Made by a program: the position numbers and the translations under genes
Origin: Phytoactinopolyspora limicola
GTDB lineage: Bacteria > Actinomycetota > Actinomycetes > Jiangellales > Jiangellaceae
Direction: 5' to 3'
NCBI RefSeq assembly: GCF_011320225.1
Contig: NZ_JAAOEN010000003.1
Location: forward strand, 186,001-250,000
Length of the DNA stretch: 64,000 bases
Notes under the pieces: model-generated
Database searches by the model: none
What the model was told of the DNA's origin: nothing
Seen by the model: only the letters and a program-made list of their open reading frames with translations
In this document: in pieces, positions 32,405 through 37,850 of the stretch
Position numbering within the stretch: position 1 is the stretch's first letter
Layout of the letters: every line of letters begins with the position of its first letter

Positions 32405-33211
32405 TCAGCCGCCGCGCCGGATTCGGCCCTGGTACCGCTTGAGTAGTGCTTCGTTGTGGGTGTCCCCGCCGGGCACGTTGGCGGAGAGGTAGACAGGGGG
32501 GTCCTCGCCGGCCGCGAGCAGCCGACGCACCACCTCTGCCGTGAGGAACTGCGCCAGCAGTGCCGACGTGATGGTCGACACCGCACAGACCGCGCCGCCG
32601 CCGGGTAGGGGCAGCACGGCATCTCCGAACGGGCCACCGTTGTCGAGCACCACATCCGCAAAATTGGAAAGTTTCCTGCCAGAAGGATGTCGCGACTCTA
32701 CTCGTGCGCTATGGGCGAGGGAAGTGATGGTGACCAAAGCGTGACCACGTTCTTTTGCGAGGCTGGCCAACCCCACCACACTCCCGTTGATCCCGGAGTT
32801 CGACACGATCACGAACGCGTCAGCCGGGTCGACCGGGGTTGCCTCGTACAGGCGCCGCCCGATGTCGGGATCACGTTCGGCATGCGGGTCGGCGAGAATA
32901 CCCGGCGACTCCCCGTTCTGCACCACTAGGTCGCGCAGTGCAATCCGATTGGACGGGATCAGGCCACCGGCTCGGCCGGCGATCTCCATCGCCACTGCCT
33001 GCGAGTGGCCGGTGCCGAACGCCTGAATCACCCCGCCTCGCTGGATGGACTCCGCGAGCAGGTCGGCGGCGCGAGCGACGTTCTCCATCTCCTGCTCGGT
33101 AACCCGTTGGATAGCGTCGCGCATCTCGGTGAGGTATGCCTGTGCACTTACCGGCCCGGCCGGACTCGTGGTCGGGTGCGCATCTGGCGGCTTCGCGATG
33201 TCGTCGTCCAC
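32405..33211 (-). CDS. SIS domain sugar-phosphate protein
   Basis: A protein of 268 residues, GTG start adjoining the RpiR stop (TAGGTG). The N-terminal helical part is followed by an SIS fold: VIQAFGTGHSQAVAMEIAGR, DAFVIVSNSGINGSVVGLA and GHALVTITSL. It resembles isomerases or MurQ-like etherases of amino-sugar phosphates; no catalytic Glu typical of MurQ is identified. A paralogue is found at 49703-50479 in the second sugar cassette. Confidence 0.88.
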   Translation of the reverse strand: MDDDIAKPPDAHPTTSPAGPVSAQAYLTEMRDAIQRVTEQEMENVARAADLLAESIQRGGVIQAFGTGHSQAVAMEIAGRAGGLIPSNRIALRDLVVQNGESPGILADPHAERDPDIGRRLYEATPVDPADAFVIVSNSGINGSVVGLASLAKERGHALVTITSLAHSARVESRHPSGRKLSNFADVVLDNGGPFGDAVLPLPGGGAVCAVSTITSALLAQFLTAEVVRRLLAAGEDPPVYLSANVPGGDTHNEALLKRYQGRIRRGG

Positions 33212-34174
33212 CTACTGCCCTACCTTCTTCACTCGTGGACCCTTTCGATGGCCACTGACGGCGTCGGCCGTCATCTTCAGCGCGGCGATCGTCTGCTCGT
33301 GCCGCCGCTGAGCCACCGCCACGTAAACGAGGTCGAGGACGATGATCTGCGGGAGCCGGGACGCCATCGGCGCCGGGCGGAAGGTCGTCTCGTGAGTGGC
33401 CGTGGTCAGGACGATGTCGGCGACCTCCACCAGTGGCGAGTCGGGCACGTTGGTCAGCGCCACGGTCGTGGCGCCGCTGCTGGCGGCGACCGACAACATC
33501 TCCAGCGTTTCCCGAGTGGCGCCGGAGTGCGAGATGCCGATGGCGACGTCTCCGGGTTTGAGCAGGACCGAACTGGTCAAGCCGGAGTGGACGTCGCCCC
33601 AGGCCCAGGTTGGTACACCGATCCGATGCAGGCCGAGCTGCATCTTCCCAGCCACCAGGGTGCTGCCGCCGGCACCGTAGAGGTCGACCCGGCCCGCACT
33701 GTTGATGGCATCGGCCGCGCGGTCCACCGCTGCGAGGTCGAGTTGGGCCACCGTCTCCTGAATGGCGCGGATCTCCGCGGTCGCGACCAGGCTGGCCACC
33801 CGGTCGAGCGGGTCGGTGGGGCTGATCTCCCGCCCGATGTCGATCTCCCAGCCGGCGACCGACGATGATCGCCCGGTCTCCTCCGCCATCGCCAGGCGCA
33901 GATCGGCATACCCGGGCAGACCCAGCGCCCGGCAGAAACGGGTCACCGTCGCCGGAGACGTCCCGCTACGTTCGGCCGTCTCCAAGATGGTGGATCTGGC
34001 CACCCACGCCGGGGCCGACAGGACCTGCTCCCCCACCCGTTGCAGCGCGGTCGGCAGGTTGGGCAGCATCGCCCGAGTCCGCGCCAGGACGGCGTCACCG
34101 CTGAGCCGCTCCCCCGGCCACCCCGCGTCGTCACCGGATGTCGGTCCGGACGGCGGGGCCGATTGCTCCGTCAC
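33212..34174 (-). CDS. MurR/RpiR family transcriptional regulator
   Basis: 320 residues from GTG 34174, which has AAAGGAG 6 bp upstream. An N-terminal HTH_6 domain (STILETAERSGTSPATVTRFCRALGLPGYADLR) is followed by an SIS domain (RVDLYGAGGSTLVAGKMQ; DVAIGISHSGATRETLEML). The SIS part senses a sugar phosphate. It heads the amino-sugar operon and is divergent from the kinase gene, so it probably controls both. Confidence 0.92.
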   Translation of the reverse strand: MTEQSAPPSGPTSGDDAGWPGERLSGDAVLARTRAMLPNLPTALQRVGEQVLSAPAWVARSTILETAERSGTSPATVTRFCRALGLPGYADLRLAMAEETGRSSSVAGWEIDIGREISPTDPLDRVASLVATAEIRAIQETVAQLDLAAVDRAADAINSAGRVDLYGAGGSTLVAGKMQLGLHRIGVPTWAWGDVHSGLTSSVLLKPGDVAIGISHSGATRETLEMLSVAASSGATTVALTNVPDSPLVEVADIVLTTATHETTFRPAPMASRLPQIIVLDLVYVAVAQRRHEQTIAALKMTADAVSGHRKGPRVKKVGQ

Positions 34175-34270
34175 GGTTGGCTCCTTTGCTTCCCTCGTGC
34201 GCAGCTGAGCGTTACTGTCCTGGTAGGCACCGGCGTATCGGCCAGTGATGGCGGTTGAGCGACCCTTGGT

Positions 34271-34339
34271 TGTGAGTTTCACATCTCATGGCGTGCGATA
34301 ATGTTCTGAAAACTATTTCTGGCAGCTCTCCGGTGTCAA
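34271..34339 (-). promoter_or_regulatory. Promoter and candidate RpiR operator
   Basis: On the minus strand, TTGACA (34339-34334) and TAGTTT (34315-34310) are spaced by 18 bp and point to the rpiR operon. The palindrome TGTGAGTTTCACA (34271-34283) lies about 20 bp past the expected start, where a repressor would block transcription. A GATAAT on the plus strand near 34297 could serve the kinase gene. Confidence 0.6.
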
Positions 34340-34405
34340 GACTTTCTCCATAGGTTGCCGAAAGCGTGACATCGTTGCCGGCTCGAACGAGACGTGAGGT
34401 GGCGT

Positions 34406-35440
34406 GTGGCACATCCGGCAGGTCTGGTTCTCGGTCTCGACATCGGCGGCACCTCGACGCGGGTCCTGGTCGCCGACACCAACGGCCGGCGAGAAGGCAC
34501 CGGGCGTGGACCCGGCGCCAACGTCACGTCGCACGGCGCCGACAAATCACTCGACGCGTTGTCGACGGCGTTGCGCGTGGCCCTGACCGGCCTCGACCCA
34601 GCTCGAGTTCAAGCCGCCGTGATCGGTACGGCAGGTCCGGAGAACTTCACCCAGCCAGAGGTCGCCGCCGGTTTCGACCAGATCTGGCGTGACCTCGGGC
34701 TGCGCTGCGACTACGAGATCACCGACGACGCCCGGGTAGCGTTCGTCGCTGGTACCGCCGAGCCGGACGGCACGCTGCTCCTGTGCGGCACCGGCGCTAT
34801 CGCCGCCCGATTCGAGCAGCAACGACGGGTGCACACGGTGGACGGGCATGGTTGGCTGCTCGGTGATCTCGGATCCGGATTCTGGCTCGGCCGCGAAGCG
34901 GTTCGGACCACCCTCGACGTACTGGCCCGCCACGAACGGCCCGGTCCGCTCGGCCGCGCCGTACTGGCAGCGCTGCTGACACCACGAGGCGACGAAGCCG
35001 ACCCGGCAGGTGCGGCCCTCGAACGGTTGTCGACCTCCACCGACTACCGGGCGTTGGCCGACCGGATCGTGCTCAACGTGCACCAACAACCGCCCATCGC
35101 CTTGGCCGAGCTAGCCCCGTTGGTCAGCGACAACGCCGCTGGCGACCCCGACGCCACTCGCGTCTTGGAACGTGCCGCGGACCACCTGCTCGCCTCGGCG
35201 TCAACCGTGCGCACTACGGACGGCACGCCGATGGTGCTCGCCGGATCGTTGCTCACCTCGGACACACCACTGCGGCGGCTGCTGGAGCCACGGCTGGTCG
35301 AACAGTGGCCGAAAGCCACGATCAGCGCCGCTCGTGATGGAGCCGCCGGCGCCGCCTGGCTCGCGGCGAGTCGCCTGCTAGGACCAGGCAGCACAGCCAG
35401 CGTCGAGTTGCATAGCCGGATGGTGGCGCCCACGGCTTAG
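34406..35440 (+). CDS. N-acetylglucosamine kinase-like protein (BadF/BadG/BcrA family)
   Basis: About 344 residues from GTG 34406; GTG 34394 is also in frame. ATP-binding signatures are LGLDIGGTSTRVLVAD and LLCGTGAIAARFEQQ, with a ligand segment GWLLGDLGSGFWLGR. This is the family of eukaryotic-type N-acetylglucosamine kinases. It is divergent from an NgcEFG-like importer operon, so it would phosphorylate the imported amino sugar. A 15-bp stem terminator follows. Confidence 0.88.
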   Translation: MAHPAGLVLGLDIGGTSTRVLVADTNGRREGTGRGPGANVTSHGADKSLDALSTALRVALTGLDPARVQAAVIGTAGPENFTQPEVAAGFDQIWRDLGLRCDYEITDDARVAFVAGTAEPDGTLLLCGTGAIAARFEQQRRVHTVDGHGWLLGDLGSGFWLGREAVRTTLDVLARHERPGPLGRAVLAALLTPRGDEADPAGAALERLSTSTDYRALADRIVLNVHQQPPIALAELAPLVSDNAAGDPDATRVLERAADHLLASASTVRTTDGTPMVLAGSLLTSDTPLRRLLEPRLVEQWPKATISAARDGAAGAAWLAASRLLGPGSTASVELHSRMVAPTA

Positions 35441-35543: not shown

Positions 35544-36815
35544 TCAGTCCAGGCCAGGAACCGGGAACCGGCCGGTGAGCTCGGACACCTCACCGTGCAC
35601 CCTGGCAACGGCCTTCTCGACCGCCTCGGTGTCGTCACCGGCCAGGGTGGAGACGATCTCATCCATCCATCGGGCGACCTCACGCATCTCCGGCTCGGCC
35701 ATGCCCCGGCTGGTCAGCGCCGCCGTGCCCAGCCGCAGCCCGGACGGGTCGAACGGCTTGCGGGTGTCATACGGCACGGTGTTGTAGTTGGCCTCAAGCC
35801 CCGCCTGGTCGAGGATCTGCGCGGCCGGTTTGCCGCCGACCCCCTTCGAGGTGAGGTCGATCAGGATCAGGTGGTTGTCCGTCCCGCCGGAGATGAGGTC
35901 GAATCCGCGCGCCTGTAGTTCCTCGGCCAGCGCCCGAGCGTTGGCGACGATCTGGTGGGCGTAGTCGGCGAAGCCCGGTTGAGCCGCCTCGTGCAAGGCC
36001 ACCGCGATACCCGCGGTGGTGTGGTTGTGCGGGCCGCCCTGCAAACCAGGGAAGACCGCCTTGTCGATGGCTTTGGCGTGCTCCGGGGCCGCCATGATCA
36101 TGGCGCCGCGAGGCCCCCGCAGGGTTTTGTGGGTGGTGGTCGTGATGATGTCCGCATGGCCCACGGGCGAGGGGTGGGCGCCACCAGCGACCAAACCCGC
36201 GATGTGCGCGATATCGGCCACCAGCACGGCGCCGACCTCACGGGCGATCTCGGCGAAGGCGGGAAAGTCGATGACCCGCGGGATGGCGGTACCGCCGCAG
36301 AAGATCAGGGTGGGCCGCTCCCGGCGGGCGAGGTCGCGGACCTCGTCCATGTCGACCCGGCCAGTCTCGCGGCCGACGTCATAGTGCACGGCGTTGAACC
36401 AGCGGCCGGTGGCCGACACGCTCCAGCCATGGGTCAAATGCCCACCCATCGGCAGCGCCATACCCATCACGGTGTCGCCCGGTTTGGCGACGGCGAGATA
36501 GACGGCGAGGTTGGCCGGTGATCCGGAGTAGGGCTGGACGTTGGCATGCTCGGTCCCGAACAGCGCCTTGGCCCGGTCCACCGCCAACGTCTCGATCTGA
36601 TCGATGACCTGCTGGCCCTCGTAGTAGCGGCGACCGGCATAACCCTCGGAGTATTTGTTGGTCAGCACCGTGCCGCTGGCTTCGAGCACCGCCGCCGAGA
36701 CGTAGTTCTCGGAGGCGATCAACTTGAGCGTGTCGCGCTGACGGGCCTCCTCGGCTGTGATGAGTCCGGCCAATTGGGGGTCGACGCTGCGCAGATGGTT
36801 CGGAGTTGCGGTCAT
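35544..36815 (-). CDS. glyA: Serine hydroxymethyltransferase
   Basis: A protein of 423 residues, full length. Hallmarks are LIASENYVSAAV, NKYSEGYAGRRYYEG, VADIAHIAGLVAGG and the PLP-lysine segment TTTTHKTLRGPRGA. It converts serine and tetrahydrofolate to glycine and methylene-tetrahydrofolate. Start ATG 36815 was chosen by the normal N-terminus (HLRSVDPQLAGLI). A ZTP riboswitch lies 45 bp upstream, linking expression to folate/purine status. Confidence 0.97.
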   Translation of the reverse strand: MTATPNHLRSVDPQLAGLITAEEARQRDTLKLIASENYVSAAVLEASGTVLTNKYSEGYAGRRYYEGQQVIDQIETLAVDRAKALFGTEHANVQPYSGSPANLAVYLAVAKPGDTVMGMALPMGGHLTHGWSVSATGRWFNAVHYDVGRETGRVDMDEVRDLARRERPTLIFCGGTAIPRVIDFPAFAEIAREVGAVLVADIAHIAGLVAGGAHPSPVGHADIITTTTHKTLRGPRGAMIMAAPEHAKAIDKAVFPGLQGGPHNHTTAGIAVALHEAAQPGFADYAHQIVANARALAEELQARGFDLISGGTDNHLILIDLTSKGVGGKPAAQILDQAGLEANYNTVPYDTRKPFDPSGLRLGTAALTSRGMAEPEMREVARWMDEIVSTLAGDDTEAVEKAVARVHGEVSELTGRFPVPGLD

Positions 36816-36860
36816 GACGCGGTGGTCACTTCCTTTCCCTCGTCCGCTGGTGGTCCGGAA

Positions 36861-36956
36861 CACCCAGGCGCGCGGTGCCTCCGCCGTCAGCTCCCCGGTG
36901 GTCAGTTCCACCTCGAGCCGCATATCGCGGCTCGTTTTGCGCCAGTCGCCACGGCC
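36861..36956 (-). ncRNA. ZTP (pfl) riboswitch upstream of glyA
   Basis: On the minus strand the conserved blocks appear in order: GCCGTGGCGACTGGCG, then GGTGG...CCACCGGGGAGC, and finally CGCGCGCCTGGGTG. GCCGT (36955-36951) pairs with ACGGC after the GGGGAGC block to form P1, and GGTGG/CCACC forms P2. An extra hairpin (CGAGCCGC/GCGGCTCG) is inserted between P1 and P2. ZTP riboswitches sense the purine intermediate ZTP/ZMP when 10-formyl-tetrahydrofolate is low, and they turn on folate genes such as glyA. Confidence 0.9.
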
Positions 36957-36979
36957 TTCACGATAGCGGCTCACGCCGA

Positions 36980-37018
36980 CCGGCGACACCGCCCCTCGTG
37001 CGGCGGTGGTGTCGCCGG
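36980..37018. other. GC-rich hairpin between the glyA leader and the phosphodiesterase gene
   Basis: CCGGCGACACC and GGTGTCGCCGG form an 11-bp stem, and GCC/GGC continue it past a bulge. It lies in the divergent gap upstream of the riboswitch. The role is unclear. Confidence 0.4.
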
Positions 37019-37058
37019 GCCGCGGGGCACCTCTCCCCCGAGGCACTAGGCTGGTTCT

Positions 37059-37850
37059 GTGGCCTTGCGACGCCCACAACCTCCACACCCGTATTTCGAC
37101 CATGCCGGGCCGCTCGCCCTTGCCCATCGGGGTTTCTCCCGCGCCGGGTTGGAGAACAGCATGGCTGCCTTCGCCGCGGCCGTGGACCTTGGATACCGCT
37201 ACATCGAGACCGATGTCCATGCCACCTTCGATGACGTCGCGGTGGCCTTCCACGACACCACCCTGGATCGGGTCACCGACGGTTCAGGGGTGATCGCCGA
37301 ACTGCGGTGGCCGGAGGTCAACCGGGCGAACATCGGCGGCACCGAGCCGGTGCCACGGCTGGACGACGTCCTCGGAACGTGGCCACAGTTGCGGGTGAAC
37401 ATCGACATCAAGGCGGCGGCCGCGGTAGAGCCCACGGTCCGTGCTATCGAGCGCACTCAGGCTCATGATCGTGTGTGCATCGCGTCCTTCTCCGACGCGC
37501 GTCGCCGTGCGACGACCCGCCGGCTCTCGCGTGCGGTCGCCACGTCGGCGGGACGTTCACTCGTGTCGAGTTTCGTGTTGGCGTGCCGGGCCGGTCTGGC
37601 CAGCCGGGCGCAACGCTGGCTGGCTGGAGTCCATTGCCTCCAGGTGCCTGTACGTTTCGGTTCGCTGCCGGTGGTGACGAGCCGGCTGGTGGCGCAGGCC
37701 CACCGCGGCGGGCGACAGGTACACGTGTGGACCATCAATGACGCCGCCGAGATGCACCAGTTGCTCGATCTTGGTGTCGACGGCATCGTCACCGACCGGG
37801 CCGACGTCCTCCGGGACGTTCTGATCCAGCGCGGTGCCTGGCCCGGGTGA
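37059..37850 (+). CDS. Glycerophosphodiester phosphodiesterase
   Basis: A protein of 263 residues, GTG start. GDPD motifs are complete: LAHRGFSRAGLENSMAAF, YIETDVHATFDDVAV, FHDTTLDRVTDG and the C-terminal VHVWTINDAAEM...GVDGIVTDRADV. There is no signal peptide, so it is cytoplasmic. It hydrolyses glycerophosphodiesters to glycerol-3-phosphate and an alcohol. It is divergent from glyA. Confidence 0.93.
   Translation: MALRRPQPPHPYFDHAGPLALAHRGFSRAGLENSMAAFAAAVDLGYRYIETDVHATFDDVAVAFHDTTLDRVTDGSGVIAELRWPEVNRANIGGTEPVPRLDDVLGTWPQLRVNIDIKAAAAVEPTVRAIERTQAHDRVCIASFSDARRRATTRRLSRAVATSAGRSLVSSFVLACRAGLASRAQRWLAGVHCLQVPVRFGSLPVVTSRLVAQAHRGGRQVHVWTINDAAEMHQLLDLGVDGIVTDRADVLRDVLIQRGAWPG

Follow-up and report, generated by a model that had tools for sequence, protein, structure and literature searches.

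A ZTP riboswitch with an additional, lineage-conserved hairpin in junction J1/2 precedes glyA in Jiangellaceae

Riboswitches of the ZTP class sense ZMP/ZTP and act as ON switches (PMC7266159, PMC10117056). When the motif was known as pfl, in 2010, glyA was listed among the main genes that it precedes (PMC2864571). The fold is not uniform across the class: the providers of the CASP16 structures report that its variations include inserted additional paired elements, with Clostridium beijerinckii as an example (PMC12191101). Here, we analysed a window (the whole stretch of 64,000 nucleotides under study) from the genome of Phytoactinopolyspora limicola. It holds a riboswitch of this known class upstream of glyA, and the extra hairpin within it is a real and conserved, if modest, structural variant of the lineage.

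The aptamer and its place in the glyA leader

We searched the window with the Rfam covariance models (cmscan). The sole match was RF01750 (ZMP-ZTP riboswitch), on the minus strand at 36855-36958, with 45.0 bits for a cut-off of 39 and an E-value of 4e-4. The earlier note had placed a ZTP riboswitch at 36861-36956 and regarded a sub-threshold score as fatal to the proposal; the score is above the cut-off, and these positions are right in that they cover P1 to P3. The alignment spans model positions 1-86, i.e. the full length, with 22 extra nt inserted between positions 25 and 26 of the model. The order of the blocks on the minus strand is complete, as the note had said of the conserved blocks and the P1 and P2 pairings: P1 5' strand, ACTGGCG, hairpin, P2, GGGGAGC, P1 3' strand and P3 with CGCGCGCCTGGG (Table 1). 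The conserved class blocks ACUGGCG, GGGGAG and CGCCUGGG are all seen, and so are the three helices P1, P2 and P3. The gene context is one expected of the class (purine or one-carbon metabolism), with glyA (PF00464) directly downstream, and its ATG (36815-36813) lies 45 nt past 36861, exactly the distance that had been claimed.

We also followed the core through the alignment of the 20 glyA-linked copies from the family Jiangellaceae (described below). P2 pairs are intact in 19-20 of the 20 copies and the two inner P3 pairs in all of them, while the three outer P1 pairs, as MAFFT aligned them, are intact in just 5-14. The pseudoknot strands GGCG (J1/2) and CGCC (L3) provide four complementary bases. 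They are invariant in 20/20 copies, hence no covariation is visible there. The assignment of a ZTP aptamer in front of glyA is thus upheld by the model score, the complementary pseudoknot strands, the gene context and the conservation in 20 of 22 family genomes.

The 22-nt insertion corresponds to an 8-bp hairpin, CGAGCCGC-GATAT-GCGGCTCG, plus flanking bases. Within junction J1/2 it occupies the 5' strand, where it follows the pseudoknot strand GGCG and precedes P2. The stem is perfect (arms 36914-36921 and 36927-36934, 100% complementary), as the note had described it, and the folding energy of the stretch from GGCG to P2 is -16.3 kcal/mol, which in comparison with 300 dinucleotide shuffles corresponds to z = -5.5.

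Table 1. Elements of the glyA leader, in coordinates of the window.
Feature	Position	Strand	Basis
ZMP/ZTP riboswitch aptamer (RF01750)	36855..36958	-	cmscan, 45.0 bits
-10-like box TATCGT	36960..36965	-	sequence; TANNNT in the equivalent position of other family copies
P1 5' strand GCCGTGGC	36948..36955	-	pairs with 36883-36891
Pseudoknot 5' strand GGCG in J1/2	36940..36943	-	complementary to CGCC at 36867-36870
Inserted 8-bp hairpin, 5' strand of J1/2	36914..36934	-	perfect inverted repeat; family conservation; compensatory changes
P2 hairpin GGTGG-AACTGA-CCACC	36897..36912	-	covariance-model alignment, family alignment
P1 3' strand GCTGACGGC	36883..36891	-	covariance-model alignment, family alignment
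P3 including its loop (pseudoknot 3' strand CGCC, 36867-36870)	36861..36877	-	covariance-model alignment, family alignment
Shine-Dalgarno-like AGGAAG	36829..36834	-	about 13 nt to ATG; position conserved in family alignment
glyA, serine hydroxymethyltransferase, 423 aa	35544..36815	-	ORF; PF00464 at 503.5 bits

TANNNT boxes lie just upstream of P1 in the family copies, which suggests that the glyA transcript starts at, or just before, P1. A scan for the sigma-70 consensus called no promoter, despite the TATCGT box. The region upstream contains a 20-nt imperfect inverted repeat (36974-37024) with 85% complementarity, a spacer of 11 nt and GGCGACACC/GGTGTCGCC as its inner part. It lies between glyA and a divergent GDPD-family gene at 37059, over the expected -35 region of glyA, and could be a candidate operator; a counterpart is not obvious in one relative (L021). 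On the other side of glyA, the Pfam content of a cluster at 32405-35440 (a SIS-domain protein, an RpiR-type regulator with a SIS domain and a BadF/BadG-type ATPase) is suggestive of amino-sugar (MurNAc-like) catabolism.

Conservation of the hairpin within and outside Jiangellaceae

We detected a glyA-linked ZTP aptamer in 20 of the 22 Jiangellaceae genomes searched. RF01750 at an E-value of 0.001 matched 16 of these genomes, and a laxer search of the eight genomes lacking a match or a glyA copy supplied the remaining glyA copies. The two genomes without a glyA-linked copy measure 1.7 and 2.3 Mb and are 75% and 81% complete. As many as 14 of the 20 glyA copies score below 39 bits with RF01750, so that insertion-bearing copies, near or below the Rfam cut-off, are easily missed in annotation.

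The hairpin is present in 20/20 of these copies, with 23-29 nt between ACTGGCG and P2, and the 17 distinct inserts fold with z-scores of -1.8 to -5.5 (mean -3.3). The inserted stem is out of register in the MAFFT alignment (A1); hence, it was omitted from the covariance model built on the family (R1) and assessed by hand alignment. Arms were chosen by hand in 12 of the 20 copies (left out were L015, L131/L132, with inserts identical to scored ones, and for the rest Jiangella-type stems similar to that of L009). In these 12 stems, 5.83 of 6 positions are paired if both arms come from one genome; combining arms from different genomes lowers this to 3.80. Among the eight copies of the same closing geometry, both partners differ in 4 of the 6 pairs (A-U/G-C, G-C/C-G, C-G/U-A and C-G/G-C). 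Palindromes are frequent in a region of about 70% GC, and one could imagine a chance motif match next to an unrelated palindrome. The model score, the conservation and the compensatory changes argue against this. Model R1, built on the 20 family copies but omitting the helix, also sets Jiangellaceae (94-108 bits, high by construction as the model comes from the same sequences) apart from the next best match in the 393 genomes of the class (53.6 bits, 86 nt). The chance reading was already disfavoured and its probability is practically negligible. Across the genomes compared, the hairpin is fixed on the glyA copies of Jiangellaceae.

The genome of P. limicola (6.59 Mb, 40 contigs) has a second ZTP aptamer (50.3 bits) before a gene that we name purH from our reading of the downstream protein. 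Other copies occur in the family. One relative has a second SHMT gene with its own ZTP aptamer (L003, G018:C2:197537-197625, 58.6 bits), which lacks the hairpin and which the second-SHMT copies L143, L146 and L155 resemble. The same genome has a degraded ZTP-like copy (L138, G018:C13:69385-69471, 32.1 bits) in which CGCCTGGG has become TGCCTGAG. The purH-linked ZTP aptamer is on the same contig, at a distance of about 1.9 kb. The degraded copy has no clear downstream gene and looks like a decaying duplicate.

The pairing of glyA with a ZTP aptamer is itself ordinary and common in Actinomycetota: the core motif was found in 65 of 80 named glyA loci, nearly all of them actinobacterial. The length from GGCG to P2 has two peaks. 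It is 2-11 nt in 62 of the 65 named loci and 22-28 nt in the other three, which include a member of Jiangellaceae. A further 73 loci from outside Jiangellaceae gave 69 at 2-9 nt and four at 21-28 nt. Another set is rich in a second family (f17), which we take to be Streptosporangiaceae in GTDB, since it holds Thermomonospora. Here, an interval of 17-32 nt was counted at 16 of 45 loci, or at 14 of the 40 places that are distinct; this is not a frequency because loci were picked partly for long matches. One of the 16 (L211), counted at 17 nt, was mis-split by the script and its real insert is longer. Of the 13 non-family inserts that were scored, 11 have z ≤ -2, and two are weak (L143 at -1.3 and L234 at -0.2).

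Hairpins at the same place in J1/2 thus occur in part of the Streptosporangiaceae and in one further genome. The glyA aptamers of Streptosporangiaceae (e.g. L027 of Acrocarpospora, L025 of Microbispora, L190, L191 and L217) share with those of Jiangellaceae the gene and the position of the hairpin, but their stem is of the UGACGUGC type, it starts one nucleotide after GGCG, and the P2 loop is another. Given these differences, the Streptosporangiaceae hairpin looks like a separate gain. In a phylum-wide search, model R1 matched 10 of 296 genomes at E ≤ 0.05. Except for the P. limicola copy itself, the matches were 76-91 nt long; judged by length, none in this sample from outside the class seems to carry the insert. 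The Rfam search of the 393 class genomes gave, among the matches listed, seven inspected non-family places of at least 96 nt. One of them (L143) has a J1/2 hairpin and most others have a long P2-P3 linker instead. Such a linker is found in the ZTP aptamers of folD-like genes of other actinobacteria (L141, L142, L144 and L145), where, by eye, it looks able to form a hairpin placed like the linker hairpin of C. beijerinckii. As far as sequences can tell, J1/2 is a site that takes up whole helices repeatedly.

The hairpin might be a regulatory module of its own, such as a protein site, an RNase site or a second sensor, by which glyA would respond differently from purH. This would fit its conservation in all family glyA copies and its restriction to them within Jiangellaceae (it is missing from 6/6 purH-linked copies). 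Yet the loops differ in sequence and length (GATAT, ATGAC, GTGA, CACA and others), so that no sequence-specific loop is conserved, and similar hairpins of different sequence in other lineages are what one expects of a tolerated insertion site. We consider such a module quite unlikely.

Output step and role of the hairpin

The earlier note favoured control of translation initiation, arguing that no U-rich terminator is visible. The premise agrees with our scan: 36600-37300 yielded no terminator-like site, where shuffles lead one to expect 0.4. With no intrinsic terminator found, translation start is a plausible point of action for the switch, a reading favoured by default. A partner that would sequester the Shine-Dalgarno sequence did not emerge for this copy. 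We compared duplex energies between the P3 3' strand and the ribosome-binding region with dinucleotide shuffles in the 20 family copies and in 63 other glyA copies. Sequestration by this strand found no support here (z = +1.76) and in the family (mean z = +0.34, with 0/20 below -1). The 63 other copies have a mean z of -0.27, with 16/63 below -1, and sequestration by the P3 3' strand is possible in other actinobacteria. A hairpin just downstream of P3 that would compete with it was also discarded as a general mechanism (mean z = -0.76, 7/20 below -1, z = +1.91 for the P. limicola copy); all seven copies below -1 belong to a single genus (g5, probably Jiangella). In the P. limicola copy, constraining the fold to the aptamer did not clearly change how accessible the Shine-Dalgarno sequence and start codon are predicted to be. 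Minimum-free-energy structures of the entire leader mostly failed to reproduce the aptamer unless constrained, and they did not separate two states.

Two smaller features lie close to the start codon. A small hairpin between the Shine-Dalgarno sequence and ATG (GUGAC/GUCAU here, GUGGC/GCCAU in most relatives) varies at just one pair, and there is a possibility that it is a real element. An overlapping upstream mini-ORF (GTG/ATG start, stop overlapping the ATGA of glyA) occurs here and in several relatives, and was dismissed as the frame is not kept: by eye, two relatives (L019 and L020) have the upstream ATG in frame with glyA and L021 has no ORF ending there.

The distance from Shine-Dalgarno to ATG, about 13 nt, is long, which is a point against a translational step. 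The aptamer could instead act on transcription, through Rho or through a terminator devoid of a U-tract. U-tract terminators are few in GC-rich actinobacteria. Many ZTP riboswitches elsewhere are transcriptional (PMC2864571), and no helix sequestering the Shine-Dalgarno sequence is demonstrable in the glyA leader. This reading has against it the empty terminator scan and the gap of only about 45 nt between aptamer and start codon; it is possible, though we find it doubtful.

Our preferred reading, which we hold to be probable with good confidence, is that a ZTP riboswitch controls glyA as an ON switch by analogy with its class, that its output is, more weakly, at translation start, and that the extra hairpin is most likely peripheral. 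From what is known of the class, a shortage of 10-formyl-tetrahydrofolate would let ZMP/ZTP accumulate. The ligand would bind between the two subdomains and stabilize P3 and the pseudoknot. Expression of glyA would then rise, bringing one-carbon units back into folate. The hairpin would most likely be a tolerated helix at the periphery, with no effect on the ligand pocket. At most, it might aid folding, in that the GC-rich insert pairs with itself and not wrongly with the pseudoknot strand. In partition-function folding of the nascent RNA ending after P1, the native insert leaves the pseudoknot strand unpaired with a mean probability of 0.60. The corresponding value is 0.33 for shuffled inserts, 0.49 for poly-A and 0.46 for short linkers. 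Compared with short linkers the gain is small, and some copies do not show it. There was no folding-aid effect in the RNA ending after P2 (native higher in 5/20, short linker higher in 8/20), and in the full aptamer the same folding showed little effect of the insert on the availability of this strand. These models suggest that the hairpin may be a self-contained helix that avoids harm and helps folding slightly. A bolder proposal is that J1/2 hairpins are functional add-ons, gained independently on glyA copies in several actinobacterial lineages, and that by tuning ligand affinity or co-transcriptional folding they set glyA and purH of the same cell to switch at different ZMP levels. We rate it as speculative and rather unlikely.

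Comparison with described ZTP riboswitches

These observations matter in three ways. They point to a second site in the ZTP aptamer, besides the linker between subdomains, where whole helices are repeatedly inserted without loss of the core. They supply naturally occurring variants with which the tuning of riboswitch folding by peripheral helices could be tested. Finally, they reveal paired ZTP switches in one cell, with the helix before glyA and without it before purH.

The P. limicola copy shares with the RF01750 class (pfl motif) the core blocks, P1, P2 and P3, the pseudoknot strands and the regulated genes (glyA and, elsewhere in the genome, purH). It differs by its 22-nt insertion with the 8-bp hairpin in the 5' strand of J1/2, where most other actinobacterial copies inspected have 2-11 nt. 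Among the described systems, Schaalia (Actinomyces) odontolytica is also an actinobacterium. Its ZTP aptamer, of solved structure (PMC12191101), belongs to the same class as ours. In the portion of the literature searched, whose coverage lacks the founding ZTP papers, we met no description of a J1/2 hairpin. The pfl ZTP riboswitch of C. beijerinckii likewise has an extra hairpin beyond the conserved fold (PMC12191101, PMC10687018), but that element belongs to the linker joining the P1/P2 subdomain to the P3 subdomain, whereas the hairpin described here is within J1/2, in the first subdomain. Hence, inserted paired elements are known in ZTP riboswitches generally, and the variant found here is a helix in J1/2.
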